DNA of 64,000 nt from positions 62,001-126,000 of the forward strand of contig NZ_LXYR01000005.1 in NCBI RefSeq assembly GCF_001650195.1, given 5' to 3'. Made by a program: the position numbers and the translations under genes. A model generated the notes under the pieces. It saw nothing but the letters and a program-made list of their open reading frames with translations, was not told the origin of the DNA and made no database searches. This DNA comes from Phormidesmis priestleyi BC1401. Its GTDB lineage: Bacteria; Cyanobacteriota; Cyanobacteriia; Leptolyngbyales; Leptolyngbyaceae. This document shows positions 41,186-64,000 of the stretch, in pieces (position 1 is the stretch's first letter; each line of letters opens with the position of its first letter).

Positions 41186-42481
41186 TTAGCGGTCTGATTC
41201 TTCAGGGATCGCAAAGAAATCTGCCTGCTCTTGCAGAGAGGCTTCGAGCAAATCGGTCGCGCCTAGTTTGACATCTTCGTGATAAAGGTAGGCGATATCC
41301 AACGCTTCTAAGGTTGCCCGAATATGGGTGCGAATCGGCTGGCTCCCGATCGCCCGAATCAATTTAGGCACGTCTAGTTGGGCATCCCAAGCATAGGCTG
41401 CGCCGTGAAGTTTGACCAAATGATCGAGTAACTCAATCAAACCACTCGTTTCGAGCGGACGGATCGTGGGACAGGTAGACCCGATAGCGGTTTCAAAAAA
41501 GTTTTGCATCACCTGCCCTGCATCGGTGCCGAATTTCTCGATCGCCAACTCAGGAATTTGACTGCGATCGTTTTTGGCGCTCGGCGTGCTGGTGCCGCTG
41601 AACCAGACATCGTTTCGCAAACTGGAGGCAACGACCCCAAAGGTGTAAATCGGGTAGGGATTCTCGCACAATAACTCTTGATCCCCATCTCGACGCACCG
41701 GACGATCGGACCAATTTAGCAGCCAGTTGAGATTGCGATATGCCTGAAGTCGTCCGACTTTGCCAAGTCGCCCAATTAGCTCGACTTCATCCAACAACAG
41801 CACCCAACCTTTGTAGCCACACAGAGCGATCGCGTCTGCCATCACGCCAAAATAAGCGCTTCCATGCTGCGTCGTGCGGAAGTTCATGTCAAATTTGGGC
41901 ATTGACTCACCCCGGCAGTTGCGATGAATGCGTTTCAGTTCGGGGCTGGTAATCCGCGTTCCCATCAAGTCGCCGTAGAGGAGATCTTGTTCTTCGCCCG
42001 ACGTGAAAAAATAGTCCTCCAGAACGATCTCTGGGAGCGGATGACTGTAGCGATCGCGATCAGCCAGGGGACTATTGAGCAAATCGCCTGCTTTTCTAGA
42101 GCTTAATGCTTTGGTCAGTCCTGCCATTTTAGAATCGGGCGTGCGAAGCACTGAGGCGACTCGTCCATAAAAGTTGAGCAGGTGATGACATGACACTTCT
42201 CGGCTCAAAGAAACTCGACTAACCGCAAAGCCTAAATCCAGTGCGACGTGTTCAACCGTGGTCAGCGCGTGAGTTTTGCCTTGCCCATAAGGTCCCCAGG
42301 CTAACCGTCCTGCGGGATGCTGCTTACTCTGAGAGAACTGCTCTAAATCTCGCCGAATCAGGTCGGTCAGTGACTCTCGCAGATCGGGCAATTCTCTCGT
42401 TGACGTGCGGGTGGGAATTCCGGCGCGAAGAGATTCGACAACGGCGATCGATTTTCTGCGATGAGCGTCATATCGCTCCAT
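41186..42481 (-). CDS. BrxC/BrxD-like P-loop ATPase (DUF2791-type), third gene of a cassette
   Basis: 431 residues. Walker A WGPYGQGKTHAL (G63, K69, T70) and Walker B WVLLLDEVE (226-234) with VELIGRLGKVGRLQAYRNL just after, a combination seen in the BrxC/BrxD ATP-binding family of BREX systems and relatives. The N-terminal ~45 residues (RAGIPTRTSTRELPDLRESL) match the typical lead-in. It likely hydrolyses ATP while acting on DNA or a partner complex. It lies 36 bases after a second, different ATPase and in the same direction as an unrecognised 268-aa gene. No BREX core genes (pglX, pglZ, brxL) are in the window. Confidence 0.75.
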   Translation of the reverse strand: MERYDAHRRKSIAVVESLRAGIPTRTSTRELPDLRESLTDLIRRDLEQFSQSKQHPAGRLAWGPYGQGKTHALTTVEHVALDLGFAVSRVSLSREVSCHHLLNFYGRVASVLRTPDSKMAGLTKALSSRKAGDLLNSPLADRDRYSHPLPEIVLEDYFFTSGEEQDLLYGDLMGTRITSPELKRIHRNCRGESMPKFDMNFRTTQHGSAYFGVMADAIALCGYKGWVLLLDEVELIGRLGKVGRLQAYRNLNWLLNWSDRPVRRDGDQELLCENPYPIYTFGVVASSLRNDVWFSGTSTPSAKNDRSQIPELAIEKFGTDAGQVMQNFFETAIGSTCPTIRPLETSGLIELLDHLVKLHGAAYAWDAQLDVPKLIRAIGSQPIRTHIRATLEALDIAYLYHEDVKLGATDLLEASLQEQADFFAIPEESDR

Positions 42482-42517
42482 GCGTCTACCTCAATGATGT
42501 TGATTTTTGAACTCGGT

Positions 42518-43699
42518 TCATCCGTCGCTAAGTGCCATCAGAGTTGCACCAATTACGTTAGCTCGAAGTTGGCTATAGTTATCGAGAGCGGGAAGCTCGC
42601 GATCGACCACTTCAAATCCCGCTTCTTGAAATAATCGCCGCAGTCTCATCTGCACCTGTTCGGGAAAGGCTTTGCCGTTGGCAACCACATGACTGTCGGT
42701 GTCTACGATGTCCGATAAAGGGTTGAACTTGTGAATGGGCAACAAGCCTGTTTGTAACCGCATCCACAGCGCTTCGTAGCTTTTAAAGCCGCGACGATCG
42801 TCCTCGATCATCTCGCGCCGACCCGCCAGCAGCAGCAGAAAATGATCGAGCAGTTCTACATCATCAATGATCTGGCGAAACAGTTCGCAGGTGTCTTTAA
42901 TAGCGTTAGCGGTGTATCGAAAGCGGCGAGTTTCGGGATGGCGTTCGGTCATGACTTCTAGATCGTCGATCGCCACCACTAGCCCCGTCATTCCTGCCAG
43001 ATGCAGAAGCCGAATCAAAGAGTTTAACCAATAGCGAGCGTTTGGTTTTTGCAGTCGTTCGTAAAGTAAGGTCGATTGCTTTTGATGCCGTTCTAGTTTT
43101 TCACCCGACAGCCACCTGAGCGCAAGTCGAATGCTATCTTCGTTGCCACTGATCAGCCGATTGCTAATCACGCTATAAGCAAATGCCCGAAACGATGACC
43201 CAAAATCAACATCTCTGAGCGTCAGCCCGATCGCCCGTTTGATTTCATACACTGCCAGATCACGAGTTAGCCCTTGATCTTCAATCAGCAGAGACAGAAT
43301 GCGATCGCTGTCGTCGTATTGCCCATAGCCTAACTTTTTGGTGACGAGTTGACACAGACCACTCACCAAGCGCTCTTTGTCGAGTTGCTGCACGATCGCC
43401 CGATAAAACCCTGGCAAATCATTCAAACGATATTCTCGTGCTGAAAGATAAACGGTTTGGTAATCTCTGGCTTGGGCATCTTGCAGCACACAGCGCAATA
43501 GATGAGTTTTTCCCGTTCCCTCGCCGCCTACTAAAACTTTGACCTTGCTGCCGCCATCGGCAATATAGTTTGCCAAGTAGTGTTCGTGAAGATAGTCAAG
43601 CCAACGATCGTGCCCCAGCGTCATTCCCGTCAGAAGGTCCTGACTTACCGGAGGCTGACCCGACAGCAACGCCTCAATGTCCAGTTCGTCAATCTGCAT
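42518..43699 (-). CDS. Second BrxC/BrxD-like P-loop ATPase of the cassette
   Basis: 393 residues. Walker A LVGGEGTGKTHLL (58-68 region) and Walker B LVVAIDDLEVM (240-250). A short sensor-like GRREMIEDDRRGF segment follows (~300). It begins with a ~30-residue acidic leader (MQIDELDIEALLSGQP) and LGHDRWLDYLHEHYLANYI, like ORC/BrxD-type STAND-related ATPases. It is not a duplicate of its neighbour: the sequences outside the P-loop differ strongly. Start codon is 8 bases after the stop of the 268-aa gene, so the cassette is clearly an operon. Confidence 0.72.
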   Translation of the reverse strand: MQIDELDIEALLSGQPPVSQDLLTGMTLGHDRWLDYLHEHYLANYIADGGSKVKVLVGGEGTGKTHLLRCVLQDAQARDYQTVYLSAREYRLNDLPGFYRAIVQQLDKERLVSGLCQLVTKKLGYGQYDDSDRILSLLIEDQGLTRDLAVYEIKRAIGLTLRDVDFGSSFRAFAYSVISNRLISGNEDSIRLALRWLSGEKLERHQKQSTLLYERLQKPNARYWLNSLIRLLHLAGMTGLVVAIDDLEVMTERHPETRRFRYTANAIKDTCELFRQIIDDVELLDHFLLLLAGRREMIEDDRRGFKSYEALWMRLQTGLLPIHKFNPLSDIVDTDSHVVANGKAFPEQVQMRLRRLFQEAGFEVVDRELPALDNYSQLRANVIGATLMALSDG

Positions 43700-43707
43700 T
43701 GTCAGCC

Positions 43708-44514
43708 CTATCCCTCTGTTTCAACGAGATGAATCGCCAGCGTGCTGACTCGACTTTCTTGCCCTTGACTATTGACCAGCAAAAAACTACTCGCTTGATT
43801 TCGAGAGGGTTCTAGCTCAAACTGATAGCGATCGTAGCGAATCTCGGTCTGTTCTTTTAGCCGTGCTAAATCATAGATGAATAACGGCTCAGGATAATCT
43901 TGTTTGGTCGATTGCTTCATCGTCAAGAGGCGATAAATGTCTTTGAGCGGAACGGATTGCCCCCAAACGACCTCCTCTTTCTGCAACATCAGTCGATTCA
44001 GCATTTCATAGGTGCTGATGAGTTCTCGACAAAAGCGGGCAGCGTCGAACTTGCTGTCAATCACCCGTCGATATTGTCCCGACACCCAAGGGGCTAACTG
44101 TTCGGGTGCAAAGGCTTTGATTTGCTGAGATCGTCGCCCTACACTTAACCGCACTACGCCTTGCTCACGGCTAAACGTCAGCTTAAAGGGAGGAAACTCA
44201 TAGTTGGGAAACTCACCCTTGACGGGAATTCCTACCGCTTTGAGGGCATTTTCTAATTCGATCGGGTAGTCATCAGACGAGACAAAATCCTGATTAGCTT
44301 GCAGCGCATTGAGAATCACGGTTTGTTGCTCAACCCAGCGATCGCTGAATTTACCGAGTTCTTCGGTCAACACCTCTAGCGTTTGCGTCGAGGTTTTAAA
44401 GTCCCATTCTTTGCGCGATTTTTTAACGGCAGCCCAGACTTTGATCAGGCGTTTCAACGCGGTATCAATCTCGCTCAAAGCAAGTTTTTCTGATGCACTG
44501 TCCGACAATTCCAT
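43708..44514 (-). CDS. First gene of ATPase cassette, unrecognised 268-aa protein
   Basis: 268 residues, no signal or membrane segment. The N-terminal ~95 residues are helical with coiled-coil character (LSEIDTALKRLIKVWAAVKK, then TLEVLTEELGKFSDRWVEQQ). A central beta-rich part follows: FKLTFSREQGVVRLSVGRRS and FAPEQLAPWVSGQYRRVIDS. A helical stretch FDAARFCRELISTYEMLNRL and a polar C-terminal domain end it. I recognise no family; a TerB-related or kleisin-like adaptor are guesses only. Its position ahead of two ATPases suggests an accessory, scaffold or DNA-contact role. Confidence 0.6.
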   Translation of the reverse strand: MELSDSASEKLALSEIDTALKRLIKVWAAVKKSRKEWDFKTSTQTLEVLTEELGKFSDRWVEQQTVILNALQANQDFVSSDDYPIELENALKAVGIPVKGEFPNYEFPPFKLTFSREQGVVRLSVGRRSQQIKAFAPEQLAPWVSGQYRRVIDSKFDAARFCRELISTYEMLNRLMLQKEEVVWGQSVPLKDIYRLLTMKQSTKQDYPEPLFIYDLARLKEQTEIRYDRYQFELEPSRNQASSFLLVNSQGQESRVSTLAIHLVETEG

Positions 44515-44570: not shown

Positions 44571-44702
44571 CTAGAACTCAAAGCTACTTTCCGCCAAGGT
44601 GAACTGACCGTCTTGGTCTGGCTCAAAGTCCACAACCTTGACGACAGCATCAAGATTCAACTCACTACATAGCGCCAAGTTGTTTAAAGAAACAATGTGT
44701 AA
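44571..44702 (-). pseudogene. Possible remnant of a small protein gene
   Basis: A 43-codon frame after an in-frame TGA encodes LHIVSLNNLALCSELNLDAV then VKVVDFEPDQDGQFTLAESSFEF. The composition looks like real protein, but there is no ATG or GTG start and no family recognised. It lies between the ATPase cassette and the VOC gene, and may be the tail of a deleted gene. Confidence 0.25.
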
Positions 44703-49735: not shown

Positions 49736-50683
49736 TCAAACGCTAAAGAGTTCTAACTGCTGAACGGCTTGCGGTGTTGGTAAGTCCTGCTTCGAGACTT
49801 CAATGTACTGAAGAACACACTCAGCGATGTACTTGCCAAGATTGACCGGAACCGCATTACCGATCATCTGTTCCAGGCAAGTTTTAGTGCCAAACCATTT
49901 GAAGCCCTCTGGAAACGTTTGGATATAGCTTCTTTCTAAAGTCGTCAAAGGTCGGATGTGGTCGCTTGGGTCGCAGCGATCGCCATCATGCTTTTTATAC
50001 CCTTTAGGCAAAGGTCTATTGACACCTCGAATCGTTGGGCTGGGTTCATGCACACTAAAAATCCCCCTTCTTGCATAGCTTCTAGGGTGCCGATAATAAT
50101 AGTTAAGGTCTAATTTTTCGCCCATGTAGTCGAATATTGTCATGGGGTTGTTAGCTTGGTTTCTAACGAAATAGTTGTCCAAAAATCCATCTTCTGAATG
50201 TAGATGTCCAACTAAAATGAATCGTTTTCTAGTTTGAGGAACTCCACAATAGCTAGCATCCAAAACGGTAGAACTTAGTCCATAGTTGCTGGTTCTAAAA
50301 AGTGAGATTGCTTCTTGTAGAACGCGGCTCTTTTTAATCCGTTCTACGTTCTCCATCAAAAACCATTCTGGTCTCACCTTCGAGATAATTTGTGCATAGG
50401 AAGCTGTTAAATCTGCTCGACCTAGAGTTTCATCTCTCTTCCCAGCGCTCGAAAAATCTTGGCACGGAGGACCGCCAATAATTATGTCTGGCTCCCACTT
50501 TCTAAGAATTTCTAAATCTTCAAGCTTTGAAAGATCAGTTTGAAAAACAGGGTGATCAAAATTAGCTGAATAGATATCACAAGCTTCTTTCCAGTTGTCA
50601 AACGCTGCAACAACCTCAAAGCCAGCTTTTTGAAACCCTAGTGAAAGACCTCCACAACCCGCAAACAAGTCAATGACTTTCAT
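49736..50683 (-). CDS. DNA (cytosine-5) methyltransferase of type II R-M system
   Basis: 315 residues from the Met at 50683 (MKVIDLFAGCGGLSLGF), the standard C5-MTase start; the frame is open to 50743, but that would overlap the endonuclease gene. Motif I DLFAGCGG, motif IV GGPPCQDFSS with catalytic Cys74, motif VI ENVER, motif VIII QTRKRFILVG and motif X IGNAVPVNLG are all intact. It would protect host DNA against the adjacent endonuclease. Composition is clearly AT-richer than the flanking genes, a sign of transfer. Confidence 0.94.
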   Translation of the reverse strand: MKVIDLFAGCGGLSLGFQKAGFEVVAAFDNWKEACDIYSANFDHPVFQTDLSKLEDLEILRKWEPDIIIGGPPCQDFSSAGKRDETLGRADLTASYAQIISKVRPEWFLMENVERIKKSRVLQEAISLFRTSNYGLSSTVLDASYCGVPQTRKRFILVGHLHSEDGFLDNYFVRNQANNPMTIFDYMGEKLDLNYYYRHPRSYARRGIFSVHEPSPTIRGVNRPLPKGYKKHDGDRCDPSDHIRPLTTLERSYIQTFPEGFKWFGTKTCLEQMIGNAVPVNLGKYIAECVLQYIEVSKQDLPTPQAVQQLELFSV

Positions 50684-50696
50684 TCTTTTGGGTGGT

Positions 50697-51800
50697 TTAA
50701 ACAGACTCGAAAATTTCTGGTGAGTTGAAGATAATCGCATCAAATCGCCGTTCAGGACTCAAGAGATTTTGCCCACCGCCAAGAATGATTTCTCTAATTT
50801 GCTGTTTGGTAATTCTTGGCTTTGTCAAAATCTCACTCCGCATATATGGGTATGTGACCTTACCACTTACAGCAAACGCTTTGTCGTTTTTAGTATCATA
50901 CGATAACTCGTCAATCACGCGTCTGTGGTCTATTTGACCGTGCAGGCTAAAATCGTAGAGCATTTTGAAGAGCCAGACGGCTGTTCTTACTTGACGAGTT
51001 ATCGTTTTCAGTGCGATCAGTTCTCTTCTTGCCACATCAAGAAATAGTTGGGTAAAGGCAAGATTGCTCCAAACAAACACATCTAAGCAATTCTCAGAAA
51101 GCTTGGGGCTTTTCCCTTCTGTTTTCCAGATTGGCTGCATGACTAAAGGCTCTTGCTTATCTAAAATAGATAAAATTATTCTGTCAATTGCCTCTCTCAT
51201 TTTAAATACAGAAGAACGGATGTGTATGCCCTCTTGCCAATCCTCAATCGCTTCAAATCCTTCTCCAATTAAGGCTATCAAACCGCTTAAATCATCTCTA
51301 AAATGTATGACGATGCTACACGCTAAGTATACGATCGTGTCAGGTCTAATTACTAATTCACAGCCAAATCTATCTTCTGACAAATCGCACGTTGAATTGT
51401 CTGGAAGCGCCGTCAGTTTTATTTCGAGTCCCTTCAAGCAAAGTCCATTATTTCTACTTAACGTCACTAGATCAACTCTCGGAAAATTTCCTATGACAAG
51501 CTGTTGAAACGGAATGTAGGGACTTTCAAAAGAGTAGAAGATATTTTCAGAGATTGGGTCAGCTCCGTAAAGCTCTGCTGTGCCAATGCTACTATGATAA
51601 ACCCGCATATTTTCATCGAGTTTCAAGTACACATTTTCCAATCCTTGATGCTTGAGAAAAGCAGACAATGATGCTGGAAAAGATGAATTAAATTGATTTT
51701 TACCCCAATTATCTTTGTTTGAAAAGTTACGGTTTGAATATTTAATTCCGAAAAGATTGGGTTCCTGATGGCTGGGCATTTCAAGTTTTTCACTGCTCAT
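50697..51800 (-). CDS. Type II restriction endonuclease, HindVP-like
   Basis: 367 residues. The N-terminal LFGIKYSNRNFSNKDNWGKN and FNSSFPASLSAFL resemble the HindVP/HgiDI family (from memory). A PD-(D/E)xK-like core is visible: D110 (FPRVDLVTL) and E126-I-K128 (LKGLEIKLTALPDN). HindVP-family enzymes recognise GRCGYC; that specificity here is inference. Start codon is 81 bases from the stop of uppS, and the gene precedes its methyltransferase by about 13 bases. AT-rich like its partner. Confidence 0.82.
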   Translation of the reverse strand: MSSEKLEMPSHQEPNLFGIKYSNRNFSNKDNWGKNQFNSSFPASLSAFLKHQGLENVYLKLDENMRVYHSSIGTAELYGADPISENIFYSFESPYIPFQQLVIGNFPRVDLVTLSRNNGLCLKGLEIKLTALPDNSTCDLSEDRFGCELVIRPDTIVYLACSIVIHFRDDLSGLIALIGEGFEAIEDWQEGIHIRSSVFKMREAIDRIILSILDKQEPLVMQPIWKTEGKSPKLSENCLDVFVWSNLAFTQLFLDVARRELIALKTITRQVRTAVWLFKMLYDFSLHGQIDHRRVIDELSYDTKNDKAFAVSGKVTYPYMRSEILTKPRITKQQIREIILGGGQNLLSPERRFDAIIFNSPEIFESV

Positions 51801-59280: not shown

Positions 59281-60495
59281 CTAGTCCAAAACTTCTAAAA
59301 CGGCTTTGGGTAATAGCTGATCTTTAAACCAAACAATTCGAGCAGATGTGTCGTTGAAATTGACTCCTGCTTTTTCTAGGTTAAGTCGTTCTGAAATCGC
59401 CAAAATCAAATCGTCGCGTCCGGCTTGTTGCACCTGAGAGAACTTTTTCTTCAGATATTCGGGTCGCCAATAGCCGACGATTTCTAATAAAAAGGTGCGT
59501 CCATCGGGGTGAACGAGCCGAAAGTCAGGAATCATCACGCTGCCAGGAATTGGAATTAAGTCTACTTCTCGCTCTAACTGCCACTCGGTTTTGGCTTTTT
59601 GCCACCGCTCGACAAATCCCGCTTCTAGCATACTGTCGTAGGTTTTGCCGGGGGGATAGTGGCTGACCAATCCGCAGTCTGATTCGAGGGCAAAGCGTCC
59701 GGTGCGGGTTTTGCCAGAATAAGTGTCGTTGACCTGCAATTCAGCGGCTAGACTCCATTTAGAAACGTGGAGGAGCGCAGGAAGCAGTTTGGCGATCGCC
59801 AATCCATACCGGGTTGAAGGCTTAAATAAACTGGTCGGTCCATCAACGGTGAGCGTAAACCCGTGGTCAGCGTCGCCCTCGATATAAGTCATTAACTGAA
59901 ACAGTTTGACATAGCGAAACAGCAGTTTATATTGACCCGGATCGTTGCGATGAGCATTCAAAATCAAGTGACTGGCACGATAGAACACCCCTTGCACCTG
60001 AGAGAGATTGTAGCGATGCAGTAACGCCTCTGAAGTCGGAACTTCAAACTCAGTCAGAATTTGATTATCAGGAAGATCGGCGTAAAGCCCCGATCGGATC
60101 TGCTCGGTCAACACTTCATGCCCCAACTCTTGAGTCAGGGAATCTGCGAGACGATCGAGCGTGACTTGCGTCGCTTGAGCACTAGGCGCAGCTTGAGACG
60201 ACAGCGCAAAAATTCTCTCTCTCAGCATCGGCGGCTCTAACGGACTAATCGTTTCAAAGGTGCTAAACGCGCTGTTGAGTAAATGGGCAAGTCCGCGTTT
60301 GATGCGATAGTCGGTTTCTTCGCCTTCAAGTTCTAACAGTTGGCGATTGAGTTCGCCTTTGGTGATGCCTTTGGCTTCTTGAAACAGGGTGATTAAATCT
60401 TGCGCGATCGCCAGATTGGATTGATCAAGCTTTAACCGTTTGGGAACCAGTTCTTCACCGCTAAATCGGTGCATCAATAAATCAGATGGCAGCAT
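59281..60495 (-). CDS. DUF790/Bax1-like nuclease
   Basis: 404 residues of the DUF790 family, homologous to archaeal Bax1, the XPB-partner nuclease. Typical blocks: MLPSDLLMHRFSGEELVPKR, GLAHLLNSAFSTFE, TLTVDGPTSLFKPSTRYGLA, and a C-terminal PD-(D/E)xK-like core IPDFRLVHPDGRTFLLEIVGYWRPEYLKKK (catalytic D and ExV/G). It begins as TAATG overlap with the Uma2 gene upstream. The XPB-like helicase it would partner lies at 62710-64000, same strand. Confidence 0.88.
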   Translation of the reverse strand: MLPSDLLMHRFSGEELVPKRLKLDQSNLAIAQDLITLFQEAKGITKGELNRQLLELEGEETDYRIKRGLAHLLNSAFSTFETISPLEPPMLRERIFALSSQAAPSAQATQVTLDRLADSLTQELGHEVLTEQIRSGLYADLPDNQILTEFEVPTSEALLHRYNLSQVQGVFYRASHLILNAHRNDPGQYKLLFRYVKLFQLMTYIEGDADHGFTLTVDGPTSLFKPSTRYGLAIAKLLPALLHVSKWSLAAELQVNDTYSGKTRTGRFALESDCGLVSHYPPGKTYDSMLEAGFVERWQKAKTEWQLEREVDLIPIPGSVMIPDFRLVHPDGRTFLLEIVGYWRPEYLKKKFSQVQQAGRDDLILAISERLNLEKAGVNFNDTSARIVWFKDQLLPKAVLEVLD

Positions 60496-62709: not shown

Positions 62710-64000
62710 TTACCAATCTGCTTCGGGTTCGGCGGCACGAGGAATCGATTTTCTAGGAACAGCATAAACTGAAGGCGGTACTAACTCTAGCTGGTGTTGG
62801 GGTGATTTGGCAGGCGATTTCTCTCCTTTGCGGCGACGAGACACGCCTTCTTCGCTGGTATCTTCTGCTACAACTTCATAGAGCAACGCCAGCTTATTGG
62901 GGTCTTTGCCCTTGCGAAGAATTCGCCCCAGTCGCTGAATATATTCACGAGTCGAGCCTGTACCCGACAGCACGATCGCGACACTCGCCTCCGGCACATC
63001 AACGCCTTCGTTAAGAACTCGCGAAGCCACTAACGTTTTATAGTCTCCTTGCTTAAATCGCGTCAGCACATCATGCCGTTCTTTAACGGGAGTTTGATGC
63101 GTAATAGCAGGAATCAGAAACTCTTGAGAAATGCGATAAACGGTGGCGTTGTCGTCTGTAAAAATCAGAGTTCGTTCGGGATAATGTTGGGATAAAAGAT
63201 CGGCGAGAATTCGCAGCTTGCCCTCGGTGCCAAACGCGATCGCTTTGGCTTCTCGGTGCGCCAACATCGCTTTGCGTCCGGCTTTCGATCGAGCGCTTGC
63301 CTGCACAAATCGCTGCCAACCTTGAGCGCTGCTGAGATAAATATTCGCTTCTTTTAGGAATGCGTTGCGGATTTGAACTAAGCGATCGTAGCGTTCTCGC
63401 TCCTGTTTTGAAAGTTTGACTTTAATTTGGGTCGCTCTATGATTTGCGAGTGCCGAACCGGATAATTCTGCTGCGGTTTTACGATAGACTTCTGCACCAA
63501 TTAACGTATTCAGATCTTCGTGTTTGCCGTCTGTGCGTTCGGGTGTGGCGGTCAATCCTAATCGATAGGGCGCGATCGCAAATTCTGCAATCACTCGATT
63601 GAAGCCACTCGGCAGATGGTGGCATTCGTCAAACACCAGCAGCGCATATTGATTACCGAGTGTCTCCGCATTAATCGCAGCACTATCGTAAGTTGAGACA
63701 AGAATGGGAGTGCGATCGCGCGATCCGCCCCCCAATAACCCGACTTCAACGTCGGGAAACGCCGCCGTTAAGTGCGCGTACCACTGGTGCATTAAGTCTA
63801 AGGTGGGCACCATGACTAATGTACTGCGCTGTGTGATCTGCATCGCCAATTGCGCCAGATAGGTTTTTCCGGCAGCCGTGGGGAGAACGACGACTCCCAG
63901 CCGTCCCGCGTGTCTCCAAGCATCTAGGGCTTCTTGCTGATGCGGATAAGGCTCCATCTCTAAACTGGGCACCATTTCGACTTCTGCAAAGGCTTTTGCT
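62710..64000 (-). CDS. XPB-like SF2 DNA helicase, 5' end beyond window
   Basis: At least 430 residues; the frame stays open to the right edge (S-K-A-F-A-E-V-E before Met at 63975), and family members have an N-terminal DRD-like domain, so the true start is outside. Motif I LPTAAGKTY, motif II VFDECHHLP (DECHH), motif III GLTATPERTDGKHEDL and motif VI QRLGRILRKGKD are present, with the XPB thumb-like insert (~180-240). XPB-class enzymes open DNA for repair, in archaea with Bax1; the Bax1-like gene is 2.2 kb downstream. The last 45 residues are a disordered basic tail. Confidence 0.92.
   Translation of the reverse strand, partial: AKAFAEVEMVPSLEMEPYPHQQEALDAWRHAGRLGVVVLPTAAGKTYLAQLAMQITQRSTLVMVPTLDLMHQWYAHLTAAFPDVEVGLLGGGSRDRTPILVSTYDSAAINAETLGNQYALLVFDECHHLPSGFNRVIAEFAIAPYRLGLTATPERTDGKHEDLNTLIGAEVYRKTAAELSGSALANHRATQIKVKLSKQERERYDRLVQIRNAFLKEANIYLSSAQGWQRFVQASARSKAGRKAMLAHREAKAIAFGTEGKLRILADLLSQHYPERTLIFTDDNATVYRISQEFLIPAITHQTPVKERHDVLTRFKQGDYKTLVASRVLNEGVDVPEASVAIVLSGTGSTREYIQRLGRILRKGKDPNKLALLYEVVAEDTSEEGVSRRRKGEKSPAKSPQHQLELVPPSVYAVPRKSIPRAAEPEADW

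Follow-up and report, generated by a model that had tools for sequence, protein, structure and literature searches.

A three-gene module with two unequal BrxD-like ATPases in Phormidesmis priestleyi: a candidate ORC/Cdc6-class loader with a possible role in defence

What does a compact cassette made of one orphan protein and two related P-loop ATPases do in a cyanobacterium, and is it a relic of a known defence system or a module of its own? The question is raised by three minus-strand genes in a 64,000-nucleotide stretch of the genome of Phormidesmis priestleyi BC1401 (hereafter the window, i.e., that stretch at its full length). The first gene, P1 (43708..44514), is an open reading frame (ORF) for a 268-aa orphan subunit, a homologue of which precedes P2 and P3 in 34 loci; P2 (42518..43699) and P3 (41186..42481) encode BrxD-like AAA+ ATPases of 393 and 431 aa. 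They are separated by 8 bases (P1/P2) and 36 bases (P2/P3), and their coordinates, lengths and gaps all agree with an earlier note on this DNA. The three motifs quoted there are also present on the minus strand, i.e., the Walker A motifs GGEGTGKTH of P2 (43502..43528) and GPYGQGKTH of P3 (42269..42295), and the Walker B motif LLLDEVELI of P3 (41774..41800), each located from the sequence and the alignment. All three genes are under strong purifying selection. Indeed, dN/dS is 0.04-0.07 for P1, P2 and P3 against three relatives, although dS approaches saturation in the comparisons with the two more distant of these. Because of this constraint, and of a gene order kept in 34 complete loci, the trio is no chance arrangement of ORFs. 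P3 occurs once in this genome of 5.55 Mb.

Both ATPases belong to the class proposed for them at the outset. In a Pfam search, P2 (86.1 bits, E 3e-24) and P3 (60.2 bits, E 2e-16) match PF10923 (BrxC_BrxD) above its curated gathering cut-off of 22.2 bits; against the NCBIfam BrxD equivalog, they reach 72.8 and 42.9 bits, far under the cut-off of 350 bits. The two proteins are homologous paralogues (hhalign E 1e-10), and they are unequal. Wherever a P3 copy covers the motifs, GxxGxGK[ST]H and a DE Walker B are preserved. In the alignment, most P2 copies have DD or DN in place of the DE of Walker B, as in the window copy (VVAIDDLE, 42956..42979, minus strand, lacking the catalytic Glu), and Walker A is lost in 6 of 27 copies (L044, L114, L115, L116, L117 and L123), among which are all four CRISPR-linked ones. 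Hence, P3 is the predicted working ATPase and P2 a predicted weak or pseudo-ATPase. P2 also gives weak matches to DnaA/ORC-class proteins and to a DnaC-like helicase-loader family (E 0.009). A fold search with the P3 model returned ClpX, ORC1, yeast Orc4, RdrA and other AAA+ proteins at E ~5e-3 or worse, the ORC1/Orc4/RdrA type (E ~6e-3) being among its better matches, and none at E<=0.001.

The partner P1, which could not be placed from the letters alone, proved just as hard to place with libraries in hand. Pfam, NCBIfam and PHROGs gave no match for it, and in PADLOC it meets DrmB alone, at a sub-significant E of 0.03. Its AF2 model (mean pLDDT 89) predicts a long helical hairpin at the N-terminus and, after it, a mixed alpha/beta domain; no fold match was found for the model in the PDB at E<=0.001, nor any significant one in a viral-fold search. 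Weak sequence matches to coiled-coil proteins and to BiP were judged to be due to chance. Neither profile nor fold searches revealed a nuclease or toxin fold in P1, and no nuclease was identified for the trio. P1 matches no known complex, including the non-defence ones considered at the outset, and it represents a protein family that none of the searched libraries contains. It evolves fastest of the three subunits (24-53% identity, compared with 43-62% for P3), and most of the residues that are invariant in its alignment are structural ones (P, G, Y, W, L).

The trio is scattered rather than universal at a fixed housekeeping locus. A strong P3 match was found in 8 of 386 cyanobacterial genomes, the remaining matches being distant superfamily members, and 3 of the 42 genomes of the window's own family carry the trio, as do 3 of 18 in the class of G016. 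Among Bacillota, 15 of 398 genomes match, with 4/20 and 11/83 in two single classes. The order P1-P2-P3 recurs, with the three genes on the same strand, at 34 complete loci over two phyla. A further diverged set (L044) has a first gene that is only weakly P1-like, and four other trio loci are either decayed or interrupted by the end of a contig. The P3 tree mixes phyla, with well-supported branches that force at least two changes, and the window P3 is closer to Peptococcaceae copies (56% identity) than to several members of its own phylum (43-50%). Searches of plasmids and viral contigs found no member, and a PHROGs search gave no match apart from the weak DnaC-like one of P2, so an origin from these sources was rejected. 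An apparent recoding of TGA in two high-GC relatives is probably an artefact of where the match starts, since tblastn alignments under codes 11 and 4 are identical and free of stops.

The history of the insertion site can be read in part. In eight relatives, the glyoxalase and ABC-F genes adjoin with only a small DUF952 gene (~110-115 aa; PF06108, E 2e-30) between them, i.e., the site is empty. Beside the trio in the window, the ORF at 44571..44702 (minus strand; matching part 44595-44672) encodes LCSELNLDAVVKVVDFEPDQDGQFTL, the C-terminal end of that DUF952 protein (tblastn E 4e-6 against the intact genes of relatives). The remnant suspected at this place is therefore real: it is the truncated tail of the resident gene. 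P. priestleyi ULC007 has kept both DUF952 and the trio, and the window only the DUF952 tail. From the empty site in relatives and these two states, it follows that the trio was gained here, or repeatedly lost by the relatives, and that the loss of DUF952 came later, in the window lineage, which bears out the idea of gene gain and loss at this site. CSU_1_3 also has its trio beside this ABC-F gene, so that the site is common to this genome and two Phormidesmis genomes; in CSU_1_4, the trio lies elsewhere.

In other genomes, type I CRISPR-Cas genes neighbour the trio in four loci: the trio stands between Cas3 and a Cas1-like gene (L116), between Cas1 on one flank and a helicase on the other (L117), near DevR/Cas7 and Cas3-like genes (L115), or with Cas6 directly after P3 (L114). 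Elsewhere, BrxL directly follows P3 (L122), BrxC and PglXI lie upstream (L111), DruE is nearby (L039), and an SNF2 helicase belongs to the same gene string (L123). In nine Bacillota loci (L118-L120, L156-L161), a PbeA/XPB-like SF2 helicase is divergent from P1, and PADLOC PbeA models match the helicase of this clade with a best E of 7.5e-60. This four-gene unit is apparently undescribed. A subgroup at 54-56% identity (L162, L163) comes without the helicase. Decayed copies of the unit were also noticed in related genomes (L124, L165, L166), one of which (L166) shows helicase and P3 fragments decaying side by side. The sister copies that travel with helicases, like the inequality of the two ATPases, lay beyond what the earlier reading could see.

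Counted by locus, defence neighbours occur at 7 of 22 trio loci against 0 of 14 control loci (one-sided Fisher p=0.02, for a small control and related loci, with kinship uncorrected). At E<=1e-30, the PADLOC families listed for 115 flanking genes are led by Cas1, Cas4 and PbeA. For 95 control genes, broad families such as kinase, cysteine-desulfurase and WYL came up, and the 25 listed include no CRISPR effector, BREX or Druantia family. BrxC (L111) and DruE (L039) count among the 7 loci and stand outside the 115-gene set because they start within 6 kb but overrun the edge of the flanking stretch used. On the other hand, many trio loci have housekeeping neighbours only, and neither a helicase nor an effector was found beside the trio in the window or in the majority of cyanobacterial loci. 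The earlier proposal of a defence module is partly supported, by association with CRISPR-Cas, BREX, BrxL and Druantia-helicase neighbours elsewhere. On this distribution and these neighbours, defence appears the likelier purpose of the trio.

Several loci hold other genes of possible interest. In L113:3901-10509, where P3 is frameshifted, genes come after the trio for a protein of 437 aa, one whose N-terminus resembles Hsp70, another of 545 aa and one with a metallo-beta-lactamase fold. Peptococcaceae-type copies have a conserved HTH protein (346-418 aa) encoded immediately upstream of P1 (L005:4885-5925, L006:6860-7933, L111:12461-13717). A nucleotidyltransferase gene stands beside the trio together with a HEPN gene at L116:3648-4356 and with a small putative HEPN-like ORF at L122:2-861. 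A protein with TIR and FGE-sulfatase domains is encoded near the trio at L003:1030-2382, and a CHAT-TPR protein directly downstream at L036:11771-14746.

In the window itself, no helicase was recognised within 18 kb of the trio. At 15-19 kb from it, and a short distance apart from each other, lie a DUF790 (Bax1-like) gene (59281-60495, minus strand) and an XPB-like helicase (62710-63975, minus strand), which we considered as partners acting in trans. All 28 non-carrier family relatives tested have DUF790, as against 5 of 16 trio carriers. Because it belongs to the family core and is missing from 11 of the 16 carriers, the pair is not a dedicated partner of the trio, and this candidate was rejected. 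The nearest methylase is the C5-cytosine enzyme (E 2e-27 to M.HaeIII) of a HindVP-type restriction-modification pair identified by sequence similarity (49736-51800, minus strand), 5.2 kb from the trio; its HindVP-like endonuclease is 34% identical to plasmid copies, and the pair is kept in P. priestleyi ULC007. No PglX/BrxX-type methyltransferase was recognised on reading through the window ORFs, part of which were scanned.

Does the trio then correspond to a known system? According to PMC12839542, BrxD of type 2 BREX is a stand-alone AAA+ ATPase of the ORC-Cdc6 type that may load BrxHI, the helicase it is thought to serve. The trio shares the PF10923 family with it; it differs by two unequal paralogues that score below the equivalog cut-off, by P1, and by a locus without PglZ, PglX and BrxHI. 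As proposed at first, methylase, PglZ phosphatase and Lon are all missing from the module, and with PglZ and PglX absent from the locus and no BrxD orthology, we rejected its assignment to BREX. Shango, as outlined in PMC10250203, is likewise a three-gene system, which combines the TerB protein SngA, the ATPase SngB and the DEAD/DEAH helicase SngC. SngB falls in the same ATPase superfamily (PADLOC, E 3e-13 for P2 and 5e-9 for P3), but the trio has two ATPases and no TerB gene, and its window copy no adjacent helicase. P1 matches neither TerB (Pfam) nor SngA (PADLOC), and reaches only an hhalign E of 0.34 with a 714-aa protein of a Shango-like locus assigned by layout only. Since SngA with its TerB domain and SngC are absent, Shango was rejected too. 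The PbeA match of the divergent helicase points to PbeABCD. However, PbeB has 66 aa, PbeC is an ABC/SMC-like ATPase and PbeD has 152 aa (PMC6459918), so PbeBCD is not P1-P3, which also match no PADLOC Pbe model. A related concept is that of active and degenerate Orc/CDC6 copies paired in mobile conflict loci, which the accessible portion of PMC10853773 links to KAP NTPases or TIR/NACHT fusions, with no mention there of a P1-like partner. The trio was not found in the accessible text of the open-access papers covered, and, as a system, it is absent from the model libraries searched, in line with its description as an undescribed module.

The module, its linkage, the unequal ATPase sites, the patchy spread and the neighbours elsewhere are read from sequence. 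Our preferred reading, held tentatively, is that the trio is a heteromeric AAA+ complex of the ORC/Cdc6 class that would load or activate a partner motor on DNA, mainly as an accessory of phage or plasmid defence. P1, P2 and P3 would form one complex, in which P3 supplies the ATPase work, its paralogue P2 plays a structural part with an ATP site that is weak or dead, and P1, with its long helical hairpin, may act as an adaptor. This complex would bind DNA in an ATP-dependent way and load or activate a motor on its target, for example an SF2 helicase or a BrxL-like ring, by analogy with the role proposed for BrxD towards BrxHI and with ORC/Cdc6 serving MCM. We favour a loader because the linkage, the unequal sites and the repeated pairing with motor proteins fit the ORC/Cdc6 type. 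Different effectors may have adopted it, and for the window copy the partner would act in trans.

Housekeeping surroundings at many loci, including the immediate neighbours of the window trio and most helicase-linked loci, would also suit an accessory role in genome maintenance, in which the ATPase pair and its adaptor load a helicase for repair or for the restart of stalled forks. The lack of any match on the viral contigs and plasmids searched and the ABC-F site common to two Phormidesmis genomes and CSU_1_3 agree with it. However, defence accounts better for the very patchy spread, the cross-phylum tree, the decayed copies and the placement within neighbourhoods of CRISPR-Cas, BREX and Druantia genes, and we consider genome maintenance rather unlikely. 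We give still less credit to a self-sufficient abortive or exclusion system, in which the trio senses foreign DNA, P1 is an unrecognised effector and the window clade needs no helicase. The trio does stand alone in most of this clade, and yet dN/dS is as low as 0.04-0.07; a fast-evolving P1 would also suit an effector. Against this stand the absence of a nuclease or toxin fold in P1, its mostly structural invariant residues, and the motor protein added in several sister clades. That the trio is a remnant or satellite of BREX, the other genes being lost or elsewhere in the genome, is very improbable and largely refuted. Membership in the BrxC/D superfamily, a relative near BrxC/PglXI and another beside BrxL speak for it, as do PglZ genes elsewhere in the window genome (on contigs C44, C34 and C103, not C5); PglZ is found in just 4 of 13 carrier genomes, P2 and P3 stay at 73 and 43 bits where BrxD requires 350, and an intact three-gene order across phyla is unlike the pattern of a remnant.

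A more specific form of the loader reading, which we regard as possible though doubtful, is that P1-P2-P3 is a plug-in recruited separately by type I CRISPR-Cas, by BREX/BrxL, by Druantia-like helicases and by the new XPB/PbeA-helicase system, and would place a motor or effector on invading DNA, while P2 would have turned into a pseudo-ATPase along the CRISPR-linked lineage. ORC/Cdc6-like ATPases are common to BREX, Shango and related systems. In the trio, the order is constant over two phyla while the motor partner changes, so the job of the ATPases is separable from that of the effector, which makes the loader idea directly testable. The family offers for this a natural series, with one type of trio, varied partners, and P2 copies whose ATP site is live in some and dead in others.
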